NCBI RefSeq assembly: GCF_000282475.1
Contig: NZ_AKJF01000056.1
Span: 124,001 to 188,000, forward strand
From: Pseudomonas sp. GM78
GTDB lineage: Bacteria; Pseudomonadota; Gammaproteobacteria; Pseudomonadales; Pseudomonadaceae
DNA length: 64,000 nucleotides
Reading direction: 5' to 3'
Under the pieces are notes generated by a model, which did no database searches, had not been told where the DNA came from, and saw nothing but the letters and a program-made list of their open reading frames with translations. Of the stretch, positions 27,039-40,620 are shown piece by piece; position 1 is the stretch's first letter; each line of letters begins with the position of its first letter. The position numbers were made by a program, and so were the translations under genes.

Positions 27039-27114
<76 letters not shown>

Positions 27115-27193
27115 ATTTACAGTTCAAGGTCTGGCCACACCGACCTTGAATCGATCAGTACTCAGCACTGATCAGTTGTATAGAAGGGTTTGC

Positions 27194-27269
27194 GTCCCCT
27201 TCGTCTAGTGGCCTAGGACACCGCCCTTTCACGGCGGTAACAGGGGTTCGAGTCCCCTAGGGGACGCCA
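27194..27269 (+). tRNA. tRNA-Glu (TTC), copy 1
   Basis: GTCCCCTTCGTCTAGTGG opens the gene; the anticodon loop is CTTTCAC (anticodon TTC); T-loop GGTTCGAGTCC and encoded CCA follow. Length is 76 bases. Confidence 0.97.
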
Positions 27270-27322
27270 GTTTTACAGAAGCGATGTTGCAAGATGTCGC
27301 TCCGCCGCGAGGCGAAAAATCC

Positions 27323-27398
27323 GGGGCTATAGCTCAGCTGGGAGAGCGCCTGCATGGCATGCAGGAGGTCAGCGGTTCGATCCCGCTTAGCTCCACCA
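27323..27398 (+). tRNA. tRNA-Ala (GGC), copy 2
   Basis: It has the same anticodon GGC as copy 1 and a few compensated differences: the anticodon stem is CCTGC/GCAGG instead of CTTGC/GCAAG, and the T-stem differs. CCA is encoded; length 76 bases. Confidence 0.97.
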
Positions 27399-27477
27399 AT
27401 TTTACAGTTCAAGGTCTGGCCACACCGGCCTTGAATCGATCAGTTCTCAGCGCTGATCAGTGTATAGAAGGGTTTGC

Positions 27478-27553
27478 GTCCCCTTCGTCTAGTGGCCTAG
27501 GACACCGCCCTTTCACGGCGGTAACAGGGGTTCGAGTCCCCTAGGGGACGCCA
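27478..27553 (+). tRNA. tRNA-Glu (TTC), copy 2
   Basis: The sequence appears identical to copy 1 at 27194-27269 and has anticodon TTC. The spacer that separates it from tRNA-Ala copy 2 is nearly the same as the spacer between the first Ala and Glu genes. Confidence 0.97.
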
Positions 27554-31408: not shown

Positions 31409-32464
31409 TTATTTGCGCTCTGGTTGTCGCAGATTTTTCGAAGCCCTTGTAGGTGAGGCTCGAGGGATAGTAGGGATAGTAGGGAATAGACTATTATTAT
31501 AGCTTGAGGCGGTCTCTTGAATATACGCGTTTGCCCTCTGTTTTAGTTTTTCGATAGCACTATTCAAGCCCGCAAGATGATTGTCCATTTGGTTTATACT
31601 ATCGTTAGGTAGGTTAGCCCTCCCTAATGTCAGGTCATGTATTATTGTTCTTCTTTTTATGAATTTGGCTTGGTGCTGGAGGACTGTTGGCATAAAACCC
31701 GCAGCGTGTTCCGCTGCTGTTTTTTCAATGTTTTCAATAAGCGTATCGTCGTAATGTTTGTTTATACTATTGTTGAACAGAGTATGAATGACGCTCTCCG
31801 AATCGGAAGTCCCGTCGAGTCTGGTACGGTGCGGTACTGTTGCGTTTAATTCTTCTATGGTGTCAGGAGACATTCTAAAGCCGGTTTTTTTAAGAATTTT
31901 CTTGTTCATTACTTCAATAACCTTGTCAAGGCCATGACCCGTTGGGTCAGTATTGAGGATCGGATTGCCAAGGCAGTAAGTATAAGCATTTAAACCGCCT
32001 TTCCCGAACGGACTCAAACTGTCCGGGGAGTTAAATCTCATCAAAATCGGATTAAACTGCCGATATCCATTACCTAAATGATAATGCCCTGTTACCGGAT
32101 CGGGCCGTTCGCCGTTAAACCCTAGCAAACTAAGTAAGCCGTTGTAGTGTCGGCGATGGCCGTAGGGCGTGTAAGCGATGGGTTGAGCTCGGCCCGCGTT
32201 AAGCGCGTTTAGAACTGTCATTTGAAGGTCAGTTGCCAACAGCGTGATGTCTACCTGATCATCCATGTGCTGTTGTTGCGCCAACACGTGGTCGTCATGC
32301 TGAATAATACTGTGCTTGACCGAGCCCTGGATTTCAGTGGCCAAGTGGTCGTTACAGTGAAAACGCTGAATGCCGGCTTGTCCAATAGGCGCCCAATTAA
32401 TCGATCGATCCAGCGCATCGTAGCGATAACGGCACAGCAGGTTCTGGCGAGGTGATATGGGCAT
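31409..32464 (-). CDS. Orphan RHS-core protein with variable C-terminus
   Basis: The 351-residue protein has no long YD-repeat shell but contains the RHS-associated core: a short YD-like start (CRYRYDALDR), then YNGLLSLLGFNGERPDPVTG, YRQFNPILMRFNSPD and GGLNAYTYCLGNPI, ending NTDPTGH. The following 160 residues are of a different, AT-rich composition, with a helical, Asn/Lys-rich sequence without a motif I recognise. In RHS systems this junction separates the conserved cage part from a variable toxin. The ATG at 32464 has GGAG eight bases upstream. No immunity gene is apparent downstream (31309-31408). Toxin function is inference. Confidence 0.8.
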   Translation of the reverse strand: MPISPRQNLLCRYRYDALDRSINWAPIGQAGIQRFHCNDHLATEIQGSVKHSIIQHDDHVLAQQQHMDDQVDITLLATDLQMTVLNALNAGRAQPIAYTPYGHRRHYNGLLSLLGFNGERPDPVTGHYHLGNGYRQFNPILMRFNSPDSLSPFGKGGLNAYTYCLGNPILNTDPTGHGLDKVIEVMNKKILKKTGFRMSPDTIEELNATVPHRTRLDGTSDSESVIHTLFNNSINKHYDDTLIENIEKTAAEHAAGFMPTVLQHQAKFIKRRTIIHDLTLGRANLPNDSINQMDNHLAGLNSAIEKLKQRANAYIQETASSYNNSLFPTIPTIPRASPTRASKNLRQPERK

Positions 32465-32576
32465 TGGCTGAGCTCCGATCAAGGTCCGAAAGGCTGGACT
32501 TAAAGCATCGGCGCAATTTCAGTTTCTGCCCACTATCAGAACTGCTAGTCCGCTCATGTGGCTGGGGGCAATGCAA

Positions 32577-33509
32577 TCAAGTCCACCCATACCTAACCAG
32601 ATGAAAGAAAATCGGCGCCGCAAAGCACACCGAATCCAGTCGGTCGAGCATGCCACCATGGCCTTCGATCATATGTCCCCAATCCTTCACCCCACGGTCG
32701 CGCTTGATCGCCGACATCACAATGCCGCCGGCGAAGCCCAGCAGGTTGATCAGCAGGGCGATGAGCAGCGACTGCCAGGCGGTGAACGGCGTGATCCACC
32801 ACAAGGCGCAGCCGATCAGGGAGGCCAGCAGGATGCCGCCGACAAAACCTTCCACGGTCTTGGACGGCGACAGGTTCGGGGCGATCTTGCGTTTGCCGAA
32901 CAATTTGCCGCACACGTACTGCAGCACATCCGACATCTGCACCACGATCACCAGGTAGGCGATCAATAGCAGGTTTCGCCCCTCATAACCGGCGATGTCC
33001 AGAGTCAGCAGGGCGGGGACATGGGATACGCAGAACACTGCGATCATCAGGCCCCACTGGACTTTCGAGGCACGTTCGAGGAAGTGCGTGCTGTCGCCGC
33101 CCAGGGACGCCAGGATCGGCAGGAGCAGGAACACGTAGACCGGAATGAAGATCGAGAACAGCCCGTACCAGTCGTAGTAAATCAGCAGGTACTGCAGCGG
33201 CAGCGCCAGGTAGAAGGCCGCGACCAAAGCCGGGTAGTCACTGCGGCGGGTGGGCGTGAGGGTCATGAATTCGCGCAGGGCGTAGAAGGACACGGTGTAG
33301 AACAGCAGGATCACCGCAGTGGTGCCGAGCCAGAAGGCGATCCCGATCACCAGGACCATCACCCACCAGGCGTTGATCCGCGCGTTGAGGTTGTCGATCA
33401 CCGGGTTGGGGCTGCCTTGGCTGCGGCGCTTGAGCACCCAACCAATCGCCGAGGCCAGCAGCAGAAACGCGCCAATCCCGCCGAACAACATCAAGGTTTG
33501 TCTATCCAT
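32577..33509 (-). CDS. CdsA-type phosphatidate cytidylyltransferase (YnbB-like)
   Basis: The product of 310 residues has about eight membrane segments and the CdsA signature near the C-terminus: SAIKRDRGVKDWGHMIEGHG followed by GMLDRLDS. It makes CDP-diacylglycerol from phosphatidate and CTP. ATG at 33518 is also in frame but its AGG lies only a base away; 33509 has GGGGAG at 10 bases. It overlaps the plsC-like gene when the earlier start is used. A housekeeping cdsA normally sits elsewhere next to dxr, so this is a second copy dedicated to the operon. Confidence 0.9.
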   Translation of the reverse strand: MDRQTLMLFGGIGAFLLLASAIGWVLKRRSQGSPNPVIDNLNARINAWWVMVLVIGIAFWLGTTAVILLFYTVSFYALREFMTLTPTRRSDYPALVAAFYLALPLQYLLIYYDWYGLFSIFIPVYVFLLLPILASLGGDSTHFLERASKVQWGLMIAVFCVSHVPALLTLDIAGYEGRNLLLIAYLVIVVQMSDVLQYVCGKLFGKRKIAPNLSPSKTVEGFVGGILLASLIGCALWWITPFTAWQSLLIALLINLLGFAGGIVMSAIKRDRGVKDWGHMIEGHGGMLDRLDSVCFAAPIFFHLVRYGWT

Positions 33510-33510
33510 G

Positions 33511-34131
33511 TCAGGCATGCTCCCCGGCCAGGCTCAGCAGCGCGTCGCGACTGCGTTCGAGAAAGTGCGTCTTGCTTTCGTCTTCGCTCAGGGTCAGCGC
33601 AGCGCCAAAGCTGAGGGTGCATAACAACGGCAGCGGCAGGACCCGCCCCTTGGGCATGACGCGGTTGAGGTTGGCGATCCACACCGGGATCAACTGCGCC
33701 TGGGGATACTGCCTTGCCAGGTGGTACAGCCCGCTCTTGAACGGCAGCAAACCCTCATCGGGGTTGCGCGTGCCTTCGGGGAAGATGATCAGCGAGTCAC
33801 CGTTTTCCAGGGCGTCGAGCATTGGCTGCAAGGGATTATCGGCGGGGTCCTTGCGTTCACGGTCAACCAGCACGCCATTGAACACCTGGTTGATGATGTA
33901 GCGCCGCAGCGGGCTTTTCAGCCAGTAGTCGGAGCCTGCCACGGGCCGGGTGATGGTGCGCAGGGTTGGCGGCAGCGAGGCCCACAGCAGGACGAAATCG
34001 CCATGGCTGCTGTGGTTGGCAAAGTAGATACGTTGTACCGGTTCCGGCGCACAACCGAGCCACAAACTGCGCGCGCCGGTCAGGATGCGCGCGGCCGAAG
34101 TGATGAGGGTGGCAACCACGGGTTCGAGCAT
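33511..34131 (-). CDS. PlsC-type 1-acylglycerol-3-phosphate acyltransferase
   Basis: The 206-residue protein has the acyltransferase motifs NHSSHGD (catalytic H-x4-D), FPEGTRNP (block III) and an IPVWIANLNRV segment. It should esterify the sn-2 position of lysophosphatidate at the membrane, giving phosphatidate for the CdsA-like enzyme encoded next. GGAGTTCCC ahead of the ATG is the ribosome site. Part of the lipid operon, 9 bases past the small membrane-protein gene. Confidence 0.9.
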   Translation of the reverse strand: MLEPVVATLITSAARILTGARSLWLGCAPEPVQRIYFANHSSHGDFVLLWASLPPTLRTITRPVAGSDYWLKSPLRRYIINQVFNGVLVDRERKDPADNPLQPMLDALENGDSLIIFPEGTRNPDEGLLPFKSGLYHLARQYPQAQLIPVWIANLNRVMPKGRVLPLPLLCTLSFGAALTLSEDESKTHFLERSRDALLSLAGEHA

Positions 34132-34140
34132 GGGAACTCC

Positions 34141-34596
34141 TTATCCAGCAAAGGTCAGCCAGGGGCCGGCCAGGATGAAAACCAGCGTCAATAACAGTTG
34201 TGCCGCCACCAGCAGCGCCTGGCGGCGTAACAGTTTCACGGCGCCGGCGATGCGATCGTTCCAGGGGCGGCCGCCGCGGTCGGCGGGTTGCAGGCCCAGG
34301 GCCGCCAGTGCCTGGTCCAGGGCTTGGGTGCGCTGAGGGAGGTCTTCGGCAGGGTTGGCAAGGTGCTGGAACAGCTCGGCGTCGAAGGCAACCCGCAGTG
34401 CCCAGTACTTTTGCCACAGACCGAGCACCAGCAGCCCACTGCTGCAGACCAGGCCCCACCACCCCGGTCCGGGAGTTATGTATTGGCTCAGGCCGAGCAG
34501 GGCGCCCAGCAGGGTGAGGCCGCAGGAGAGTCGATCCAGTGAGTAGCCGCGACGCAACAGGCTGGCGGTCGTCTGCAACTGCATATCAATGGACAC
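34141..34596 (-). CDS. Small membrane protein of the lipid operon
   Basis: The 151-residue protein has three to four hydrophobic segments (CGLTLLGALLGLSQYI, WGLVCSSGLLVLGLW, LLVAAQLLLTLVFILAGPWL) with a soluble loop of about 55 residues before the last. GTG at 34596 follows GGAG and overlaps the phosphatase gene by 11 bases; ATG at 34584 is an alternative. No family recognised. The tight linkage implies a role with the lipid enzymes. It has no counterpart in the E. coli operon that I know of. Confidence 0.75.
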   Translation of the reverse strand: MSIDMQLQTTASLLRRGYSLDRLSCGLTLLGALLGLSQYITPGPGWWGLVCSSGLLVLGLWQKYWALRVAFDAELFQHLANPAEDLPQRTQALDQALAALGLQPADRGGRPWNDRIAGAVKLLRRQALLVAAQLLLTLVFILAGPWLTFAG

Positions 34597-35929
34597 TGTG
34601 CATCTCCATAGGGGTCGCCAGCGGTTCCAGCGCCTCTCGGTGACGCGGCCCCAGGACAATTCCCGGGCGTGCGCGCTGGATCAACAAAAAGGCTTCGGCG
34701 ACACTGCTGGCCCGCCCGGTATGCAACAGCCAGGCGGCTACGGCGGTGGCGCTGCGCGAATAGCCCAGGGCGCAGCAGACCAGTAGCGGCCCGTGCTGGC
34801 GCAGGCTTTCGATGGCCAATGCGGCTTCCTGGCATTGCGCGGTGGTGGGGGCGGTCAGGTCCAGGACAGGCAGTGTGCGGTAGACGACGGCGCCAGGATC
34901 GAGGGACAGTTCGGCACACAGGTCGAACACCGCGGTGAAGGCGCTGCCCTTGAGTTCCCCGCGAGTCGGTATGCGCCCGAGCCAGACGTCATCGAGCACT
35001 TGGTCTGGCAGCGGATTGTTGCGGGTCCACAGGCGCGAATTGAGCCAGGCGGCCGCCAGGTAGGGCGCCAGCAACCAGCGCGCGGCGTGGGACAGTCGCC
35101 CGTCGGCGCGCTTCTGAAACCCTCCTGCGTCCAGGACGGCGTAATTGAGCGCCACCAGCAGCAAGGCGGATGCCGGCCAGGTCAGCCACAGCCAAGCCCC
35201 GCCGAAGTAAAAGGTCGGGACGGCGAAAGCAGCAGCCCCCAACAGGTAACACAACGCCAGTTGCCAGCGTTTTTTCTCGGTTGCCAGTCGGGCGCCGTGC
35301 AGAGGCCCCGGCCCCTCCAGCGGCCATAGCCAGACACACAGCCAGCCAAGCAGAGCACCGGTAGGCAGGTCAATGAAGTGGTGTTGGTAAGTGGTCAGCA
35401 CCGAGAGCCCGATCAGGGTAAACCAGGCATGCATCAATCCGCGCCAGAAGCCCTGCAGGTGCCGGTGATAGCAGGTCCACAGGATGACCAACAGCGCAAT
35501 GTGCAGCGATGGCGCCTGATTGAACGGCTTGTCGAAGCCTGCCAGGACGTCGAACAGCCAACCGAATACGCCATCCAGTTCCGGCCGGGCGAAGGTGAAG
35601 CGCAACGGCCAGATCAGAAAACAACTGACCGCAATGAGTTGCGCGGTCAGCAGGCGCAAGGCGTGGCGCTTGAGTTCCTCGCGACTGTTGGGCAACAACA
35701 GGGACAGCCCGTACAGCAAATCGATGGACCAGTACGGGACGATGCTCCAGGCCCAGAACGGCATGTGGGTTTCCCAGCCGAACACCAGGCTGCCGACATC
35801 GTCGCGCTGGGTGGTGACCCAGGTGGCGAAGCCGTAGGTGCCGAAAAACAATGGCGCCAGGAGCAGCAGCCAGAGCACTGCGGGCTTGAGCAAGCCGGGT
35901 TCGCGTGCGGTTGTCGCGGTGTATGGCAT
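34586..35929 (-). CDS. PAP2 phosphatase fused to dual-specificity phosphatase (YnbD-like)
   Basis: The 447-residue protein joins two phosphatase modules. The N-terminal part is a membrane PAP2 domain (NQAPSLHIALLV and HHFIDLPTGALLG carry the conserved His and Asp). After further membrane segments a soluble Cys-x5-Arg phosphatase follows (VCCALGYSRSATAVAAWLL, Cys-x5-Arg = C-A-L-G-Y-S-R). Such enzymes can remove phosphate from lipid phosphates, for example phosphatidylglycerophosphate or phosphatidate. ATG at 35929 overlaps the preceding stop (TGATG). Similar in architecture to E. coli YnbD. Confidence 0.88.
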   Translation of the reverse strand: MPYTATTAREPGLLKPAVLWLLLLAPLFFGTYGFATWVTTQRDDVGSLVFGWETHMPFWAWSIVPYWSIDLLYGLSLLLPNSREELKRHALRLLTAQLIAVSCFLIWPLRFTFARPELDGVFGWLFDVLAGFDKPFNQAPSLHIALLVILWTCYHRHLQGFWRGLMHAWFTLIGLSVLTTYQHHFIDLPTGALLGWLCVWLWPLEGPGPLHGARLATEKKRWQLALCYLLGAAAFAVPTFYFGGAWLWLTWPASALLLVALNYAVLDAGGFQKRADGRLSHAARWLLAPYLAAAWLNSRLWTRNNPLPDQVLDDVWLGRIPTRGELKGSAFTAVFDLCAELSLDPGAVVYRTLPVLDLTAPTTAQCQEAALAIESLRQHGPLLVCCALGYSRSATAVAAWLLHTGRASSVAEAFLLIQRARPGIVLGPRHREALEPLATPMEMHSVH

Positions 35930-37683
35930 CACGACACCCGTTGCGCGAGAGCCACGCTGAAAATCCCCCACTCGTCGACGCGCATGCCGACTTTGCGAAA
36001 GCCGGCGGCCTCAACCAGCTGGTCCATTTCCGCCTGGGTGCGCCGGCGCATGACCCAGGCCTGGCCTTCACGGTGGCTGGTCAAGGCGCGGGCGATCAGT
36101 TCCAGCTGCGGGTGCCAGGGTTGGCCGGTGTAGACCAGGTATCCGCCAGGTTCCACGGCTTCGGCCAGGCCGGCCAGGGAAGCGCCGACCATCTGGTTGT
36201 CGGCGAACAGTTCGTACAGCCCGGAGACCACCGCCAGGGTCGGTTTGGGCTCCAGCGCGGCCAGATCGGCACGGTCGAAGGCATCGCCCTTGACGAATCG
36301 TGCGATGTCTTCCAAGCCTTTTTCCCGGATCAGTGCGCTGCCGTCACGTACGTTGATATCGCTGTAGTCGCGCAACAGAATCGATTCGGGTAACGGGCTG
36401 ATGCCCTGCAAGGCTTCGAGAATGTAGCGTCCGTGTCCGGCGGCGATGTCGACGATGCGCACTTCGCGGCCCTGGTCGCGTAATTGCTGCATTGCCAGGC
36501 GCAGCAGTTCTTCGACGTGCAGCTTGCGTTGACGAATGCCGCGCCAGCCGATGGAGTCGAGGTAATTGCGGTCGATCAGGCGGCCGACACCCGAGGTGCC
36601 CGTGGGCGTATTGCGATAGACATAGTCCAGGGTGCTTCCGGAGTCGAATCCTGTGTCGAAGCCTAGCTTGATCCCGGACGACAGTTGGCTGCCCAGGCGC
36701 ATGCTGGCGCGGGTCATGCGCCAATACAGATCGCGCAGCGAGTTGCGCGGCAGCGGCGCGGCCAGTGATTCGGATTCGGCGCAGGTCAGGCCCAGGCGAT
36801 CGGCGGCCAGCAGGGCAGGGCGTTCGGTGGGCTGTGCGAAGTTCTGCAGGATGAAACGACGTGCGCTGGCGACGGCGTGTCCACGGTTCTTTTCACCCAG
36901 GGTGTCGTGGAAGAATCCCGGCAGGACATGTTTTTCCTTGTGCAGAGTGCCCAGGCGCTCGAAGAACTGTTCCTGGGGTTGGCGGTGTACGACGAAGTCG
37001 GCACCGGAGATCAACATCTGAGTGGGTATCGCGATGGCCTGGGCATCGGCCACCACTCGGTCGGCGGCCTCATAGAGACCGAGCAGGACATTGACTGAAA
37101 TTGCCTTGGTGATCAGCGGGTCGCTGTCGTAGCTGGCGACGCGCTGCGGGTCATGGCTGAGAAAGCGCGCCTTGACGTAGCTGTTGACGAAAAAGTTGCC
37201 GCGCCACCGGCGCATCAGCGCCAACCCCTGACGGGCGAAGGGCACATAGAGCTTGACCTTGAACGCCGGTGACGCCAGCACCAGCGCACGTATGCGCGGC
37301 GCGTAGTCGTGGGCCCAGGTGGCGACGATCACCGCGCCGACGCTCTGGGCGATCACCGCCATATTTTCTTCATCGATACCGTAAACCGCGCTCAGGTGCT
37401 CGCAGAAGGTCTGCACGTCCCGCACGCTGGTGGCAAAGCTGGGGCTGTCGCCCCGGGCGCCCGGCGAGAGGCCATGGCCCCGGGCATCCCAGGCGAAGAA
37501 GTCAAAGCCGGGCAGCTCCAGTTCATCCACCAGATGGGCAATGCGCCCGGAGTGTTCATGGCCACGGTGAAACAACAGTACGGCCTGGCGTGGCGTTCCC
37601 GGTTCAGGGCTGCCGGGCCAGTGGCGGTAGAACAACTGCACGCCGTCGTGGGTGGTGAATGTCTGTTGCTGTGCTTCGCGCAT
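35929..37683 (-). CDS. Alpha/beta hydrolase-methyltransferase fusion (YnbC-like)
   Basis: The 584-residue protein has an N-terminal alpha/beta hydrolase (residues 1-310: LLFHRGHEHSGR, FAWDARGHGLS, the nucleophile in IAQSVGAVIV with Ser114, a His in PGFFHDTLGE) and a C-terminal SAM methyltransferase (motif I VRIVDIAAGHGRY, later VVSGLYELF). E. coli YnbC has the same layout and about the same length. ATG at 37683 has AAGGA seven bases upstream. In the operon it may modify the headgroup or acyl chain of the lipid made; the real reaction is unknown. Confidence 0.87.
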   Translation of the reverse strand: MREAQQQTFTTHDGVQLFYRHWPGSPEPGTPRQAVLLFHRGHEHSGRIAHLVDELELPGFDFFAWDARGHGLSPGARGDSPSFATSVRDVQTFCEHLSAVYGIDEENMAVIAQSVGAVIVATWAHDYAPRIRALVLASPAFKVKLYVPFARQGLALMRRWRGNFFVNSYVKARFLSHDPQRVASYDSDPLITKAISVNVLLGLYEAADRVVADAQAIAIPTQMLISGADFVVHRQPQEQFFERLGTLHKEKHVLPGFFHDTLGEKNRGHAVASARRFILQNFAQPTERPALLAADRLGLTCAESESLAAPLPRNSLRDLYWRMTRASMRLGSQLSSGIKLGFDTGFDSGSTLDYVYRNTPTGTSGVGRLIDRNYLDSIGWRGIRQRKLHVEELLRLAMQQLRDQGREVRIVDIAAGHGRYILEALQGISPLPESILLRDYSDINVRDGSALIREKGLEDIARFVKGDAFDRADLAALEPKPTLAVVSGLYELFADNQMVGASLAGLAEAVEPGGYLVYTGQPWHPQLELIARALTSHREGQAWVMRRRTQAEMDQLVEAAGFRKVGMRVDEWGIFSVALAQRVS

Positions 37684-37693
37684 TGCCATTTCC

Positions 37694-38317
37694 TTAGGCT
37701 GAAGAGCTGTCGATGTGTACTTCCCTGAGGCCCTGGCGGACCCGATTGACCATGGTGTAAACCAGCAGCATCGCGATGATCGCGAACACCGTGTTGATCC
37801 AGAACGGGCTGAGCCAGCCCGGTACGATGCCGGCGGCCACGACCCCCAGCACGAAAGCCCGGTCACTTTTGCCCATGGGTCCGTCATAGCGCCGCGAAGC
37901 CCCGACCATCGGCCCCAACACGCCGCTGTACTCGCTGAACAAGGCGAGCAGGGTCACCAGCAGCACCAGCCACAGGCTGACACCGGGCAGCAGGGCAAAG
38001 GGTAGGATCAAGGCGCAGTCGGCGGTGATGTCGCACAACTCGTTGAGATAGGCCCCCAGGCGCGACTGCTGGTCGAATTCGCGAGCCAGCATGCCGTCGA
38101 TGGCGTTGAGCGCCATGCGCACCAGCATCCAGATCGGTACCAGCACAAAGACCCAGGGGTGATGCACGAAACCGGCGATCACCAAGCCCACCAGGATTGA
38201 GCCGATGCCGGCTATCAGGGTGATCTGGTTGGCGGTGGTGCCGTTGTCGAACAAGCGCCGGACCAGGGGGCGCAGGAGGTTTTGGAATGCGGGTTTGATT
38301 TGGTAGATGCTGGGCAC
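37694..38317 (-). CDS. CDP-alcohol phosphatidyltransferase with atypical motif (YnbA-like)
   Basis: The 207-residue protein has six hydrophobic segments and the CDP-alcohol phosphatidyltransferase motif at 71-100, in the form N71-x2-D74-G-x2-A-R-x8-G88-x3-N92-x3-D96. Classical enzymes (PgsA, PssA) have Asp at 71 and 92, which bind metal. E. coli YnbA, as I recall it, shares the NAIDGMLAR start. It should transfer a phosphatidyl group from CDP-diacylglycerol to an unknown alcohol. GTG start at 38317, no clear ribosome site. It opens the six-gene operon. Confidence 0.87.
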   Translation of the reverse strand: MPSIYQIKPAFQNLLRPLVRRLFDNGTTANQITLIAGIGSILVGLVIAGFVHHPWVFVLVPIWMLVRMALNAIDGMLAREFDQQSRLGAYLNELCDITADCALILPFALLPGVSLWLVLLVTLLALFSEYSGVLGPMVGASRRYDGPMGKSDRAFVLGVVAAGIVPGWLSPFWINTVFAIIAMLLVYTMVNRVRQGLREVHIDSSSA

Positions 38318-38422
38318 GTTGATGAGGTCTCGGGGGAGGCGATATGGTTACTGAGTGTAGATGGCATCCTGAGATGGATTTGGGGACGGCGCCTGGTGTG
38401 TGGGTTTAATGCTCAAAGCGTG

Positions 38423-39037
38423 TCAGGGATTCGTCCATGGCTTGGCCAGTGACAGCTTGATGAGGTAGCGCTCCTCGGTGGGGTGCCTGTAATCCTTGAA
38501 GCGATTGACCACCAGCATCACTTGATACTGGGTGCCTGCATGCCAGTAGGAGGTGCCGCCCTTGTTCACATCCCGCAATTGGGCTCGCCATTGCGGGGTG
38601 TCGGCGAACGGTGGGTCTTCTTCGACGCGGATAGGTGTCCAGCCAGCTCTGCGCCATTGCTCTTGCAGATCCAGCACGACCTTGACGGTGTCGTCGAGCA
38701 ATAGCGGCTCGATTTGTGGGGACATGCGGACACCGTGGATGTGTTCATCATCAAACATCACCGTGAAAAAACGGGCCAGAGGGGTTACAAAACCGTACTT
38801 GGGATCAATGAAGCGCAGGCGTGCATCTGATTTCGGAACACTGAACCATGAGCGCCCCGGAATGGCTGGGCCAATGCTAGCGCTGGAGCGCTGGCGCATA
38901 GACTCGTAGGGCTCGCCAATCAACAGGGCGATTTCCGGCTCATCCGATAGGGTCTCGATCACGGCCAGTGTCAGAAGGGCCGCGACTGCCAGTACTGACA
39001 TGCCGCGTCGCCAGCCCATGCGTTGCATCAGGTTCAC
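38423..39037 (-). CDS. Membrane-anchored protein, candidate immunity or accessory partner
   Basis: The 204-residue protein has one N-terminal hydrophobic segment (MSVLAVAALLTLAVIETL) and a soluble, presumably periplasmic domain with DARLRFIDPKYGFVTPLARF and SYWHAGTQYQVMLVV. No family recognised. Its GTG start overlaps the stop of the PAAR gene (GTGA) with GGAGG six bases upstream, so the two are translationally coupled. This arrangement is typical of type VI effector-immunity pairs where immunity sits in the periplasm. The role is inferred from position. Confidence 0.72.
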   Translation of the reverse strand: MNLMQRMGWRRGMSVLAVAALLTLAVIETLSDEPEIALLIGEPYESMRQRSSASIGPAIPGRSWFSVPKSDARLRFIDPKYGFVTPLARFFTVMFDDEHIHGVRMSPQIEPLLLDDTVKVVLDLQEQWRRAGWTPIRVEEDPPFADTPQWRAQLRDVNKGGTSYWHAGTQYQVMLVVNRFKDYRHPTEERYLIKLSLAKPWTNP

Positions 39038-40497
39038 CGCACGCCTCCACCCCAGGCGATATCCCGAATCGATTGCTCAATCTGGTCGCGCTGGTCGCTG
39101 TGCAGTAAATCGTTAAACTGCGCCGCGGCTTTGAGCACAAAGGTCATGCGCCGTTCGATGTCAGCCGGGTTGGCAAAGGGATTGCTGCCAAAACCAATGG
39201 TGCGTCCGTCCTCGATTGGATGGCACTGGCTGGCAAGCGTCAGCTCGATGGCCTGAGCTGCACCGGAGGGGATGTTAGTGACGTAGGAGGCATGGTTACC
39301 GCGCAATAACCATTTCAGACCGCTGTCGTTGTACATAGCTGGTTGCAGAATATTGACCTGTTCGTGCTTGGCTAGATACTCAACACTCTTGGCAATATTG
39401 CCCGCCTCGATCGCCTCAAAGGCTTGGAGGATTTCCTCTTGGCTAGTCCCGAATTCCAGAGTTTCCTGCCCCACTGGCCACAGCACCGGATGCTGACCAG
39501 TGCCATAGATGTTTTTTCGTGAAGCGAGGCAGTCCTTCAGCGCCTCCAACCCCCGTTCCTTGTAGAACACATGCAGCGGATACACATCTAGGAACAGCGT
39601 GGTATTGCCCATGGCCAGCATCTCGTACACAAACCGGTACATCCGTTGCGAGAGCGACAAGGGAAGGTCGGCACCCCAGTGGGTGAAGCCCCACACCGGG
39701 TTATCCCGGTTGGCCTCTTCGTACTCGCGCTGGCGCTGCTCAAACGCCCGAATGGTCGCGCGCTTTTCCCGCTCACTGGGACTGAGCAAGCCTCTCAGTC
39801 CTTGTCTGGCATTGTCCCTCAATTGCTGTATCGCCTCTTCTTCCGCCCGAATTTTCTCGACCGAATCAGCCGCGTGCAGCAGACCACAGCCCACCTGTTT
39901 CGAAGCGAACGCCGCAAGACCAGCCCACTGGAAACGCGGGTCATGGCGCCACAGCTGGGCGTAGGCGGCATTGATCGCCTTGTTGCGCGCCTTCGGGTCG
40001 GCAATCAGCTTGCCGCCCGGCGCCACGACGTTTTCGACCCGCTGCTGGTAGCCGCGCCAATGGTTTTCGCAGACCGTCCCTGGCCGTTCGCTGAGCGTCG
40101 GCGAGGGCGCCCGCGCTGAAGTGAAACTGGATTGTCGTGGCGTCACCGGATTGCTGGGCGAAACGGGCGCGGCCGCCTGTTGAGGGGCACTCCTCACGGC
40201 TTGCGGCGCTGAACCCTGGGTGGACTCATAGCTGACGTTGGTAAACGACGGGAGGAGCCCGGCCTTGCAGGGACAGCTGCTGCGGCTATCCAGCGAGCCA
40301 GCTGCCAGCCTGCCGTGACTGTCAAAGAAAGAGATTCCACCGACGATTTCATAGGTTTCGTCGTTCTTGCCACAGGAAACGGGATCCCCGACGCGAGCGT
40401 GAGCGAAGCCATACATCATGATGCGGGTATCGGTGTCCAGCACCTCGCCACCACAAGTGGTCTTGTCACCCTTGCGAATGAAATATCCCTTTGTCAT
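39034..40497 (-). CDS. PAAR-domain protein with DUF2515-like C-terminus, candidate T6SS effector
   Basis: The 487-residue protein starts with a PAAR domain (residues about 1-85: YFIRKGDKTTCGGEVL, VGDPVSCGKN, SSCPCKAG), the cone that caps VgrG in type VI secretion. A Pro/Ser-rich linker (100-150) is followed by a helical domain (NKAINAAYAQLWRHDPRFQW, FASKQVGCGLLHA, MLAMGNTTLFLDVYPLHVFY) resembling DUF2515. The C-terminal 330 residues are the candidate toxic part. ATG at 40497 follows AAGGAG. No vgrG or T6SS cluster lies in the window. Confidence 0.82.
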   Translation of the reverse strand: MTKGYFIRKGDKTTCGGEVLDTDTRIMMYGFAHARVGDPVSCGKNDETYEIVGGISFFDSHGRLAAGSLDSRSSCPCKAGLLPSFTNVSYESTQGSAPQAVRSAPQQAAAPVSPSNPVTPRQSSFTSARAPSPTLSERPGTVCENHWRGYQQRVENVVAPGGKLIADPKARNKAINAAYAQLWRHDPRFQWAGLAAFASKQVGCGLLHAADSVEKIRAEEEAIQQLRDNARQGLRGLLSPSEREKRATIRAFEQRQREYEEANRDNPVWGFTHWGADLPLSLSQRMYRFVYEMLAMGNTTLFLDVYPLHVFYKERGLEALKDCLASRKNIYGTGQHPVLWPVGQETLEFGTSQEEILQAFEAIEAGNIAKSVEYLAKHEQVNILQPAMYNDSGLKWLLRGNHASYVTNIPSGAAQAIELTLASQCHPIEDGRTIGFGSNPFANPADIERRMTFVLKAAAQFNDLLHSDQRDQIEQSIRDIAWGGGVR

Positions 40498-40620
40498 TGC
40501 TTCAACTCCTTGTCTGTTGGCGATCTGCAGCACAAGGGTTCAATACGAAGGTGTCAGGCGTAAATCAGACGTTTCCGGAATGCGTGTAGGAAAGGGGGAT
40601 TGAATCGAAGGTGGGGATTT

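Follow-up and report, generated by a model that had tools for sequence, protein, structure and literature searches.

A six-gene operon of Pseudomonas sp. GM78, almost certainly the arc1 antagonism resistance cluster, encodes a CDP-alcohol phosphotransferase-fold protein with a variant signature

We analysed a six-gene operon on the minus strand (32577-38317) of a 64,000-nucleotide stretch of DNA from Pseudomonas sp. GM78, hereafter the window. The operon is almost certainly this strain's copy of arc1, antagonism resistance cluster 1, the name given in 2022 to PA2541-PA2536 (arc1A-F) of Pseudomonas aeruginosa PAO1 (PMC8926400). Statements taken from that paper and from PMC12663445, PMC6362211, PMC7018664, PMC7413402, PMC10881803 and PMC3781023 refer to the parts of those papers available to us. 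An earlier note on this DNA had described six overlapping or abutting genes and assigned them to families; all six open reading frames are present as described, with neighbours overlapping by up to 11 bases or standing up to 10 bases apart, and Pfam supports the assignments for five of the six proteins (A, B, C, D and P in the gene letters below). The features are as follows.

37694..38317, minus strand: arc1A (gene A), ortholog of ynbA; CDP-alcohol phosphotransferase-fold protein, 207 aa, GTG start, Pfam CDP-OH_P_transf
35929..37683, minus strand: arc1B (gene C), ortholog of ynbC; fusion of a monoglyceride-lipase-fold hydrolase and a methyltransferase, 584 aa, Hydrolase_4 and Methyltransf_20
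34586..35929, minus strand: arc1C (gene D), ortholog of ynbD; PAP2-like membrane domain and dual-specificity phosphatase (DSP), 447 aa, DSPc, PAP2 below the cut-off
34141..34596, minus strand: arc1D (gene s); small membrane protein, 151 aa, GTG start, hydrophobic stretches judged by eye only
33511..34131, minus strand: arc1E (gene P); PlsC-like acyltransferase, 206 aa, Pfam Acyltransferase, NHSSHGD and FPEGTR motifs
32577..33518, minus strand: arc1F (gene B), ortholog of ynbB; CdsA-like CDP-diacylglycerol synthase, 313 aa, CTP_transf_1, KRDRGVKDWGHMIEGHGGMLDRLD signature
38318..38352, minus strand: leader before arc1A, 35 bases, without ACARGGA or any GGA, GAGAC near the start

Orthology with PA2541-PA2536 was fixed by means of primers: those published for the PA2541 deletion flank gene A of the P. 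aeruginosa PA7 locus (L096), where they map with 0-1 mismatches. The PA7 copy carries its genes in the order A-C-D-s-P-B, exactly as in the window. Its flanking genes, by contrast, differ from those of the window; a search of 86 Pseudomonas loci, to the ends of their flanks, found the latter again only beside the operons of L023-L027 and L029. The earlier note had believed the operon to be absent at this place in PAO1. The naming of PA2541-PA2536 (PMC8926400) and the mapping of the PA2541 primers on L096 rule out its absence from that strain, and what stands is that PAO1 holds it at another chromosomal site, between different neighbours.

The operon is not the unexplored one that had been supposed, being already the arc1 cluster of PMC8926400 and PMC12663445. 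In a transposon screen, arc1 was a hit for survival of an attack by the type VI secretion system (T6SS) of Burkholderia thailandensis; deletion of PA2541 cost fitness against a T6SS attacker but not against a T6SS-null one, and deletion of PA2536 on top of it caused no further loss (PMC8926400). Survival of heat, peroxide, salt and detergent was unaffected in the arc1 mutant, and none of the single effectors tested in that study accounted for the arc1 effect. Basal expression of arc1 was very low and was raised via Gac/Rsm; five of the six genes were deemed phospholipid-related (PMC8926400). According to a 2025 study, arc1A gives protection from two lipase effectors, TseL of Vibrio cholerae and Tle1 of Acinetobacter baylyi, with arc3A the stronger factor against V. 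cholerae (PMC12663445). The available parts of PMC8926400 and PMC12663445 name no lipid product of arc1. The cluster is a known defence system, as shown by others in P. aeruginosa, and it may play the same role in GM78. An anti-phage system was rejected as a candidate: PADLOC gave only a weak mad2 match, to the methyltransferase half of Arc1B (8.1e-6).

Support for the individual families varied. The CTP_transf_1 match of Arc1F reached 248 bits, the PAP2 match of Arc1C stayed slightly under its Pfam cut-off (25.8 against 27.2 bits), and Arc1E scored 53.5 bits for TIGR00530, under the cut-off of 102.95. Arc1D had no family match in Pfam or NCBIfam, and the position of its gene between D and P is conserved across loci. 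With the operon counted in, the genome holds 4 matches to PF01066, 2 to PF01148 and 10 to PF01553. The idea of a second lipid pathway, also put forward in the earlier note, is plausible in so far as the operon brings its own PlsC-, CdsA- and CDP-alcohol-transferase-like set beside the housekeeping kinds; it is not safe to say, as that note did, that the set is enough to yield a headgroup lipid, given Asn at two of the four signature Asp positions of the transferase. The new or rare, perhaps methylated phospholipid that the note also proposed is a candidate product at most.

The part of this analysis that is new concerns that transferase, Arc1A. CDP-alcohol phosphotransferases carry the signature DxxDGxxAR...GxxxDxxxD, whose eight residues have been called "absolutely conserved" (PMC4634129). 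Arc1A has the fold and scores above the Pfam cut-off for PF01066, but it departs from the signature: Asn stands at the first Asp position (D1) in 113 of 113 readable rows and at the third (D3) in 114 of 114, one row being too short at D1. The residues in the window protein are N71 and N92, the latter adjoined by an invariant Glu93. D2, D4, both Gly, the signature Ala-Arg and the Arg pair for the acceptor phosphate are invariant wherever they can be read, and the three other PF01066 proteins of the same genome retain Asp. Arc1A is thus a member of the fold with a variant site and not a canonical CDP-alcohol phosphotransferase. A fold search with its predicted model placed it nearest to phosphatidylinositol-phosphate (PIP) synthases and not to phosphatidylglycerophosphate (PGP) synthase; a canonical PgsA was also rejected on score (17.8 bits for TIGR00560 against a cut-off of 109.1). 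The closest solved folds, RsPIPS and MtPgsA1, share the phosphate-binding Arg pair with Arc1A, which differs from them in its Asn at D1 and D3, in a Glu at the place of A90 and in the loss of the R94 and K135 equivalents. Arg at the R94 place of MtPIPS is required for inositol phosphate (PMC6506517). Among 114 Arc1A rows that place holds V in 76, I in 35, M in 2 and A in 1, so that Arg is found in none of them, and by this criterion inositol phosphate was rejected as the acceptor. As read from these alignments, the Asn/Asn site, the invariant Glu, the kept phosphate-binding Arg and the lost inositol-phosphate Arg are new here; the Asn/Asn transferase points to residues of interest and speaks against plain phosphatidylglycerol or phosphatidylinositol as the product.

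Alignments covered part of the loci (A2, 40 rows; A3, 36; A4, 32), and we left L142, in which gene A is cut, out of those for A and L026 out of those for C. Arc1B keeps its Ser114/Asp229/His259 triad and its S-adenosylmethionine-site residues without variation, and in Arc1C H143, H183, D187, C386 and R392 are invariant in 32 of 32 rows. The four enzyme proteins other than Arc1A thus have their catalytic motifs intact. The hydrolase half of Arc1B has, in its predicted model, a close monoglyceride-lipase fold. This half filled the fold-search list, in which no structural relatives of the methyltransferase half surfaced; by sequence the latter weakly matches 9sls (7.2e-4). The DSP half of Arc1C matches solved DSPs, PTPMT1 among them.

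We then looked at how well the gene set holds together across genomes, calling gene order with family profiles built from the window genes. Of 554 relatives, the 80 best, every one a Pseudomonas, supplied the Pseudomonas loci, which are therefore a biased set. Strains of P. protegens are among the carriers of arc1 (L036 and L094). The order A-C-D-s-P-B was found in 77 of the 80, including L026, whose gene C is split by an in-frame stop; the remaining three (L043, L049 and L081) end at contig ends. The earlier note had proposed a search for co-occurrence of the six families, and had held that independently scattered genes in an arrangement unique to this strain would tell against it; the shared order in 77 of 80 loci shows neither and rules out a strain-specific operon. 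All nine additional loci from the same genus or family have this order as well. In other genera (22 loci) it was seen in 10, with 3 A-C-D-s-B-P, 2 A-B-C-D (one of them Escherichia coli K-12) and 7 reduced, split or rearranged. Methyltransf_20, the mark of gene C, exceeded its cut-off in 27 of 398 genomes of the phylum and 7 of 274 of the class, and the cluster is therefore patchy outside Pseudomonas. Within 95 relatives, strong matches to gene C (at least 63% identity over the whole length) occurred in 27 and to gene A (E 4.5e-71 or better) in 30, and all 27 gene-C genomes have A. The two genes lie about 0.49 Mb apart in G091. In three Pseudomonas genomes (G008, G012 and G054) gene A is accompanied by P and B and by an extra PlsC-like gene upstream. 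An in-frame stop breaks gene C of P. violetae (L026:8935-10752) and of another Pseudomonas genome, G038 (C9:27451-29199, L002), and in one distant genome a WG-repeat protein gene is inserted between C and D (L134:9208-11361).

The same comparison ties arc1 to the ynbABCD operon of E. coli. The earlier note had equated that operon with four of the six genes, and ynbA-D were indeed found as orthologs of A, B, C and D in K-12, with identities to the window of 43% for A, 56% for the hydrolase-methyltransferase (C) and 40% for the PAP2-DSP protein (D), and with the same Asn/Asn motif in the transferase. Unlike arc1, the E. coli operon runs A-B-C-D and has neither a PlsC-like gene nor the small membrane protein. 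Of 5426 complete E. coli genomes, 4242 carry it with a coverage of at least 80%. The glycolipid MPIase increases when YnbB is overproduced, but YnbB is unable to stand in for CdsA, and deletion of ynbB leaves MPIase unchanged (PMC6362211); a review states that YnbB makes CDP-diacylglycerol in vitro (PMC7018664). Among the E. coli orthologs YnbB is the one with a reported activity in the available parts of these papers. YnbA once stood in EcoCyc as a cholinephosphotransferase, a reaction since withdrawn (PMC3781023). The link joins two literatures, that on E. coli ynbABCD and that on the Pseudomonas arc1 defence cluster: among the publications reached by our searches, in the parts available, we found no paper joining arc1 with ynb or MPIase, and neither PMC8926400 nor PMC12663445 has "ynb" in its main text. 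With the two joined, the arc1 product becomes testable in E. coli K-12, and the variant transferase together with the ynb link offers a direct way to find it.

Gene A also has a more distant counterpart. Middling matches (A', E 1e-16 to 1e-21) occurred in 11 of the 95 relatives, and the counts that follow rest on six of these 11 loci (L163-L168). Five of the six show the order A'-P-B, the sixth (L165) lying at a contig end.

L163:8218-10446 and L164:5861-8051, also L166, L167 and L168: A'-P-B trios of other Pseudomonas and relatives, whose genomes have no strong match to arc1A

As in arc1, the PlsC-like and CdsA-like neighbours match the arc1 profiles, and A' has Asn at D1 and D3 in 6 of 6. 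It differs from Arc1A in that the signature Arg is Ile or Val and Arg stands at the R94 place, again in 6 of 6, Arc1A being the opposite in both. No hydrolase-methyltransferase or PAP2-DSP gene was found in the stretches fetched around the trios. Among 59 Pseudomonas genomes, 29 have arc1A, 9 have A' and none has both; this anti-correlation has a probability of 0.0011 if genomes are taken as independent, a figure that ignores relatedness. The L163 trio adjoins an ImpA/VasJ-like T6SS gene.

We next turned to the leader of arc1A. Of 86 Pseudomonas loci, 46 have ACARGGA, the RsmA/CsrA core motif, within the 35 bases before arc1A (the count is 51 when the fourth base is left free and 60 for any GGA), against a background of 0.2% of 613 other genes in the same loci. 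The motif is present in the PA7 leader and not in that of the window, one of the 26 loci without any GGA in the 35 bases. The nearest relatives of the window have the same GTG start and GAGAC or GAGAT at that place of the leader. Gac/Rsm control may have been lost or moved in GM78. None of the six A' leaders examined has ACARGGA. In E. coli the ynbA leader holds CAAGGAT just before the start (L013:3610-3616), close to the CsrA core.

What might the cluster do? From its genes, their order and conservation, the motifs, and the folds predicted for Arc1A and one half of Arc1B, we infer the following scheme, which is conditional in every reaction, in acceptor and product and in the mode of protection. 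In P. aeruginosa arc1 would remain silent until an attack is sensed. Arc1E would then acylate lysophosphatidate to phosphatidate, Arc1F would activate this to CDP-diacylglycerol, and Arc1A would pass the phosphatidyl group on to a small acceptor that carries a phosphate but is not inositol phosphate; the phosphatase domain or domains of Arc1C would trim the product, and Arc1B could hydrolyse an acyl ester, methylate the product or a by-product, or do both. Injected phospholipases would then do less harm to the membrane, owing either to the non-housekeeping lipid so formed or to a shifted lipid balance. That arc1 is a dedicated pathway shielding the membrane in this way is about as apt to be right as wrong, and several observations weigh against it. 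The activity of Arc1A is not assured, because D1 and D3 of the signature (PMC4634129) are Asn. The alignment to RsPIPS was the one used; that to MtPIPS is shifted against it by one residue at R153. The six genes are not always a unit, since G008, G012 and G054 are without a strong gene C genome-wide and without gene D in the 17-kb stretch, and the L132 stretch holds A and C only. In E. coli, growth was normal after deletion of ynbB (PMC6362211), YnbD failed to complement mutants in PGP phosphatase and undecaprenyl-pyrophosphate (C55-PP) phosphatase, and cells lacking all four PAP2 genes including ynbD are viable (PMC7413402). Finally, ACARGGA is missing from the 35-base leader of the window and from 39 other loci (n = 86), so that Gac/Rsm control in GM78 is uncertain.

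A possible alternative, though we doubt it, is salvage, with the lipase-like half of Arc1B and the Arc1C phosphatases breaking down lysolipids and the PlsC-CdsA-CDP-transferase trio rebuilding ordinary phospholipid from lysophosphatidate. The effect of arc1A against lipase effectors (PMC12663445), the intact triad and close monoglyceride-lipase fold of the Arc1B hydrolase half, and the fact that arc3 and aas, with the same phenotype, handle lysophospholipids are all consistent with this. However, against V. cholerae arc1A was described as auxiliary to arc3A (PMC12663445), the lysolipid measurements in PMC8926400 concern arc3 and not arc1, and remaking ordinary lipids needs no diverged transferase. 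Another alternative is plain phosphatidylglycerol made by a second route, which PMC8926400 suggested from homology, calling four of the six arc1 products homologous to phosphatidylglycerol synthesis enzymes; the DSP half of Arc1C does resemble PTPMT1, among other DSPs, but with the Asn/Asn transferase we consider this product unlikely.

It is similarly improbable that the operon feeds an MPIase-like, pyrophosphate-linked glycolipid, N-acetylglucosamine (GlcNAc)-PP-diacylglycerol or a relative. The rise of MPIase upon YnbB overproduction, and the failure of YnbB to substitute for CdsA in bulk phospholipid synthesis, point that way (PMC6362211, PMC7018664, PMC10881803), but MPIase was unchanged in the ynbB single deletion (PMC6362211), the Pfam matches of the six proteins include no glycosyltransferase family, and the evidence cited comes from E. 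coli only. Least probable of all, Arc1A might be non-catalytic, binding CDP-diacylglycerol or phosphatidate to regulate or scaffold the other Arc1 proteins. Asn at two signature Asp positions in every readable member would fit such a role; yet D2, D4, both Gly, the Ala-Arg and the phosphate Arg pair are invariant where readable, and a dead enzyme need not keep them. A further reading, a long shot in our estimation, treats Arc1A/YnbA as CDP-alcohol phosphotransferases of a separate Asn/Asn branch, in which the metal site has been rebuilt (N71, D74, N92, E93 and D96) and a phosphate group, not an alcohol, serves as nucleophile; CDP-diacylglycerol would then be converted to X-PP-diacylglycerol, a lipid similar to the GlcNAc-PP-diacylglycerol that has been attributed to YnbB. 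With two carboxylates gone, an anionic phosphate could approach more easily and would be held by the retained Arg pair. If this were true, arc1, ynbABCD and the A'-P-B trios would form one defence-lipid family linking MPIase to interbacterial toxin resistance.

Just upstream of the operon lie a gene for a protein with a PAAR motif and DUF2515 (39034-40533, minus strand) and a small unnamed partner (38423-39037, minus strand), which together look like a T6SS-linked effector pair. A conserved T6SS-effector neighbourhood was rejected, the PAAR-DUF2515 gene being near the operon in only 3 of 86 loci (L023, L025 and L026; as far as the flanks reach). Directly after the operon is an Rhs-like frame (31409-32482, minus strand) of low G+C content (about 51%) and no Pfam match, its likeness to Rhs being judged by eye. 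Farther away, at 27039-27553 on the plus strand, a tRNA-Ala/tRNA-Glu pair occurs twice in tandem.
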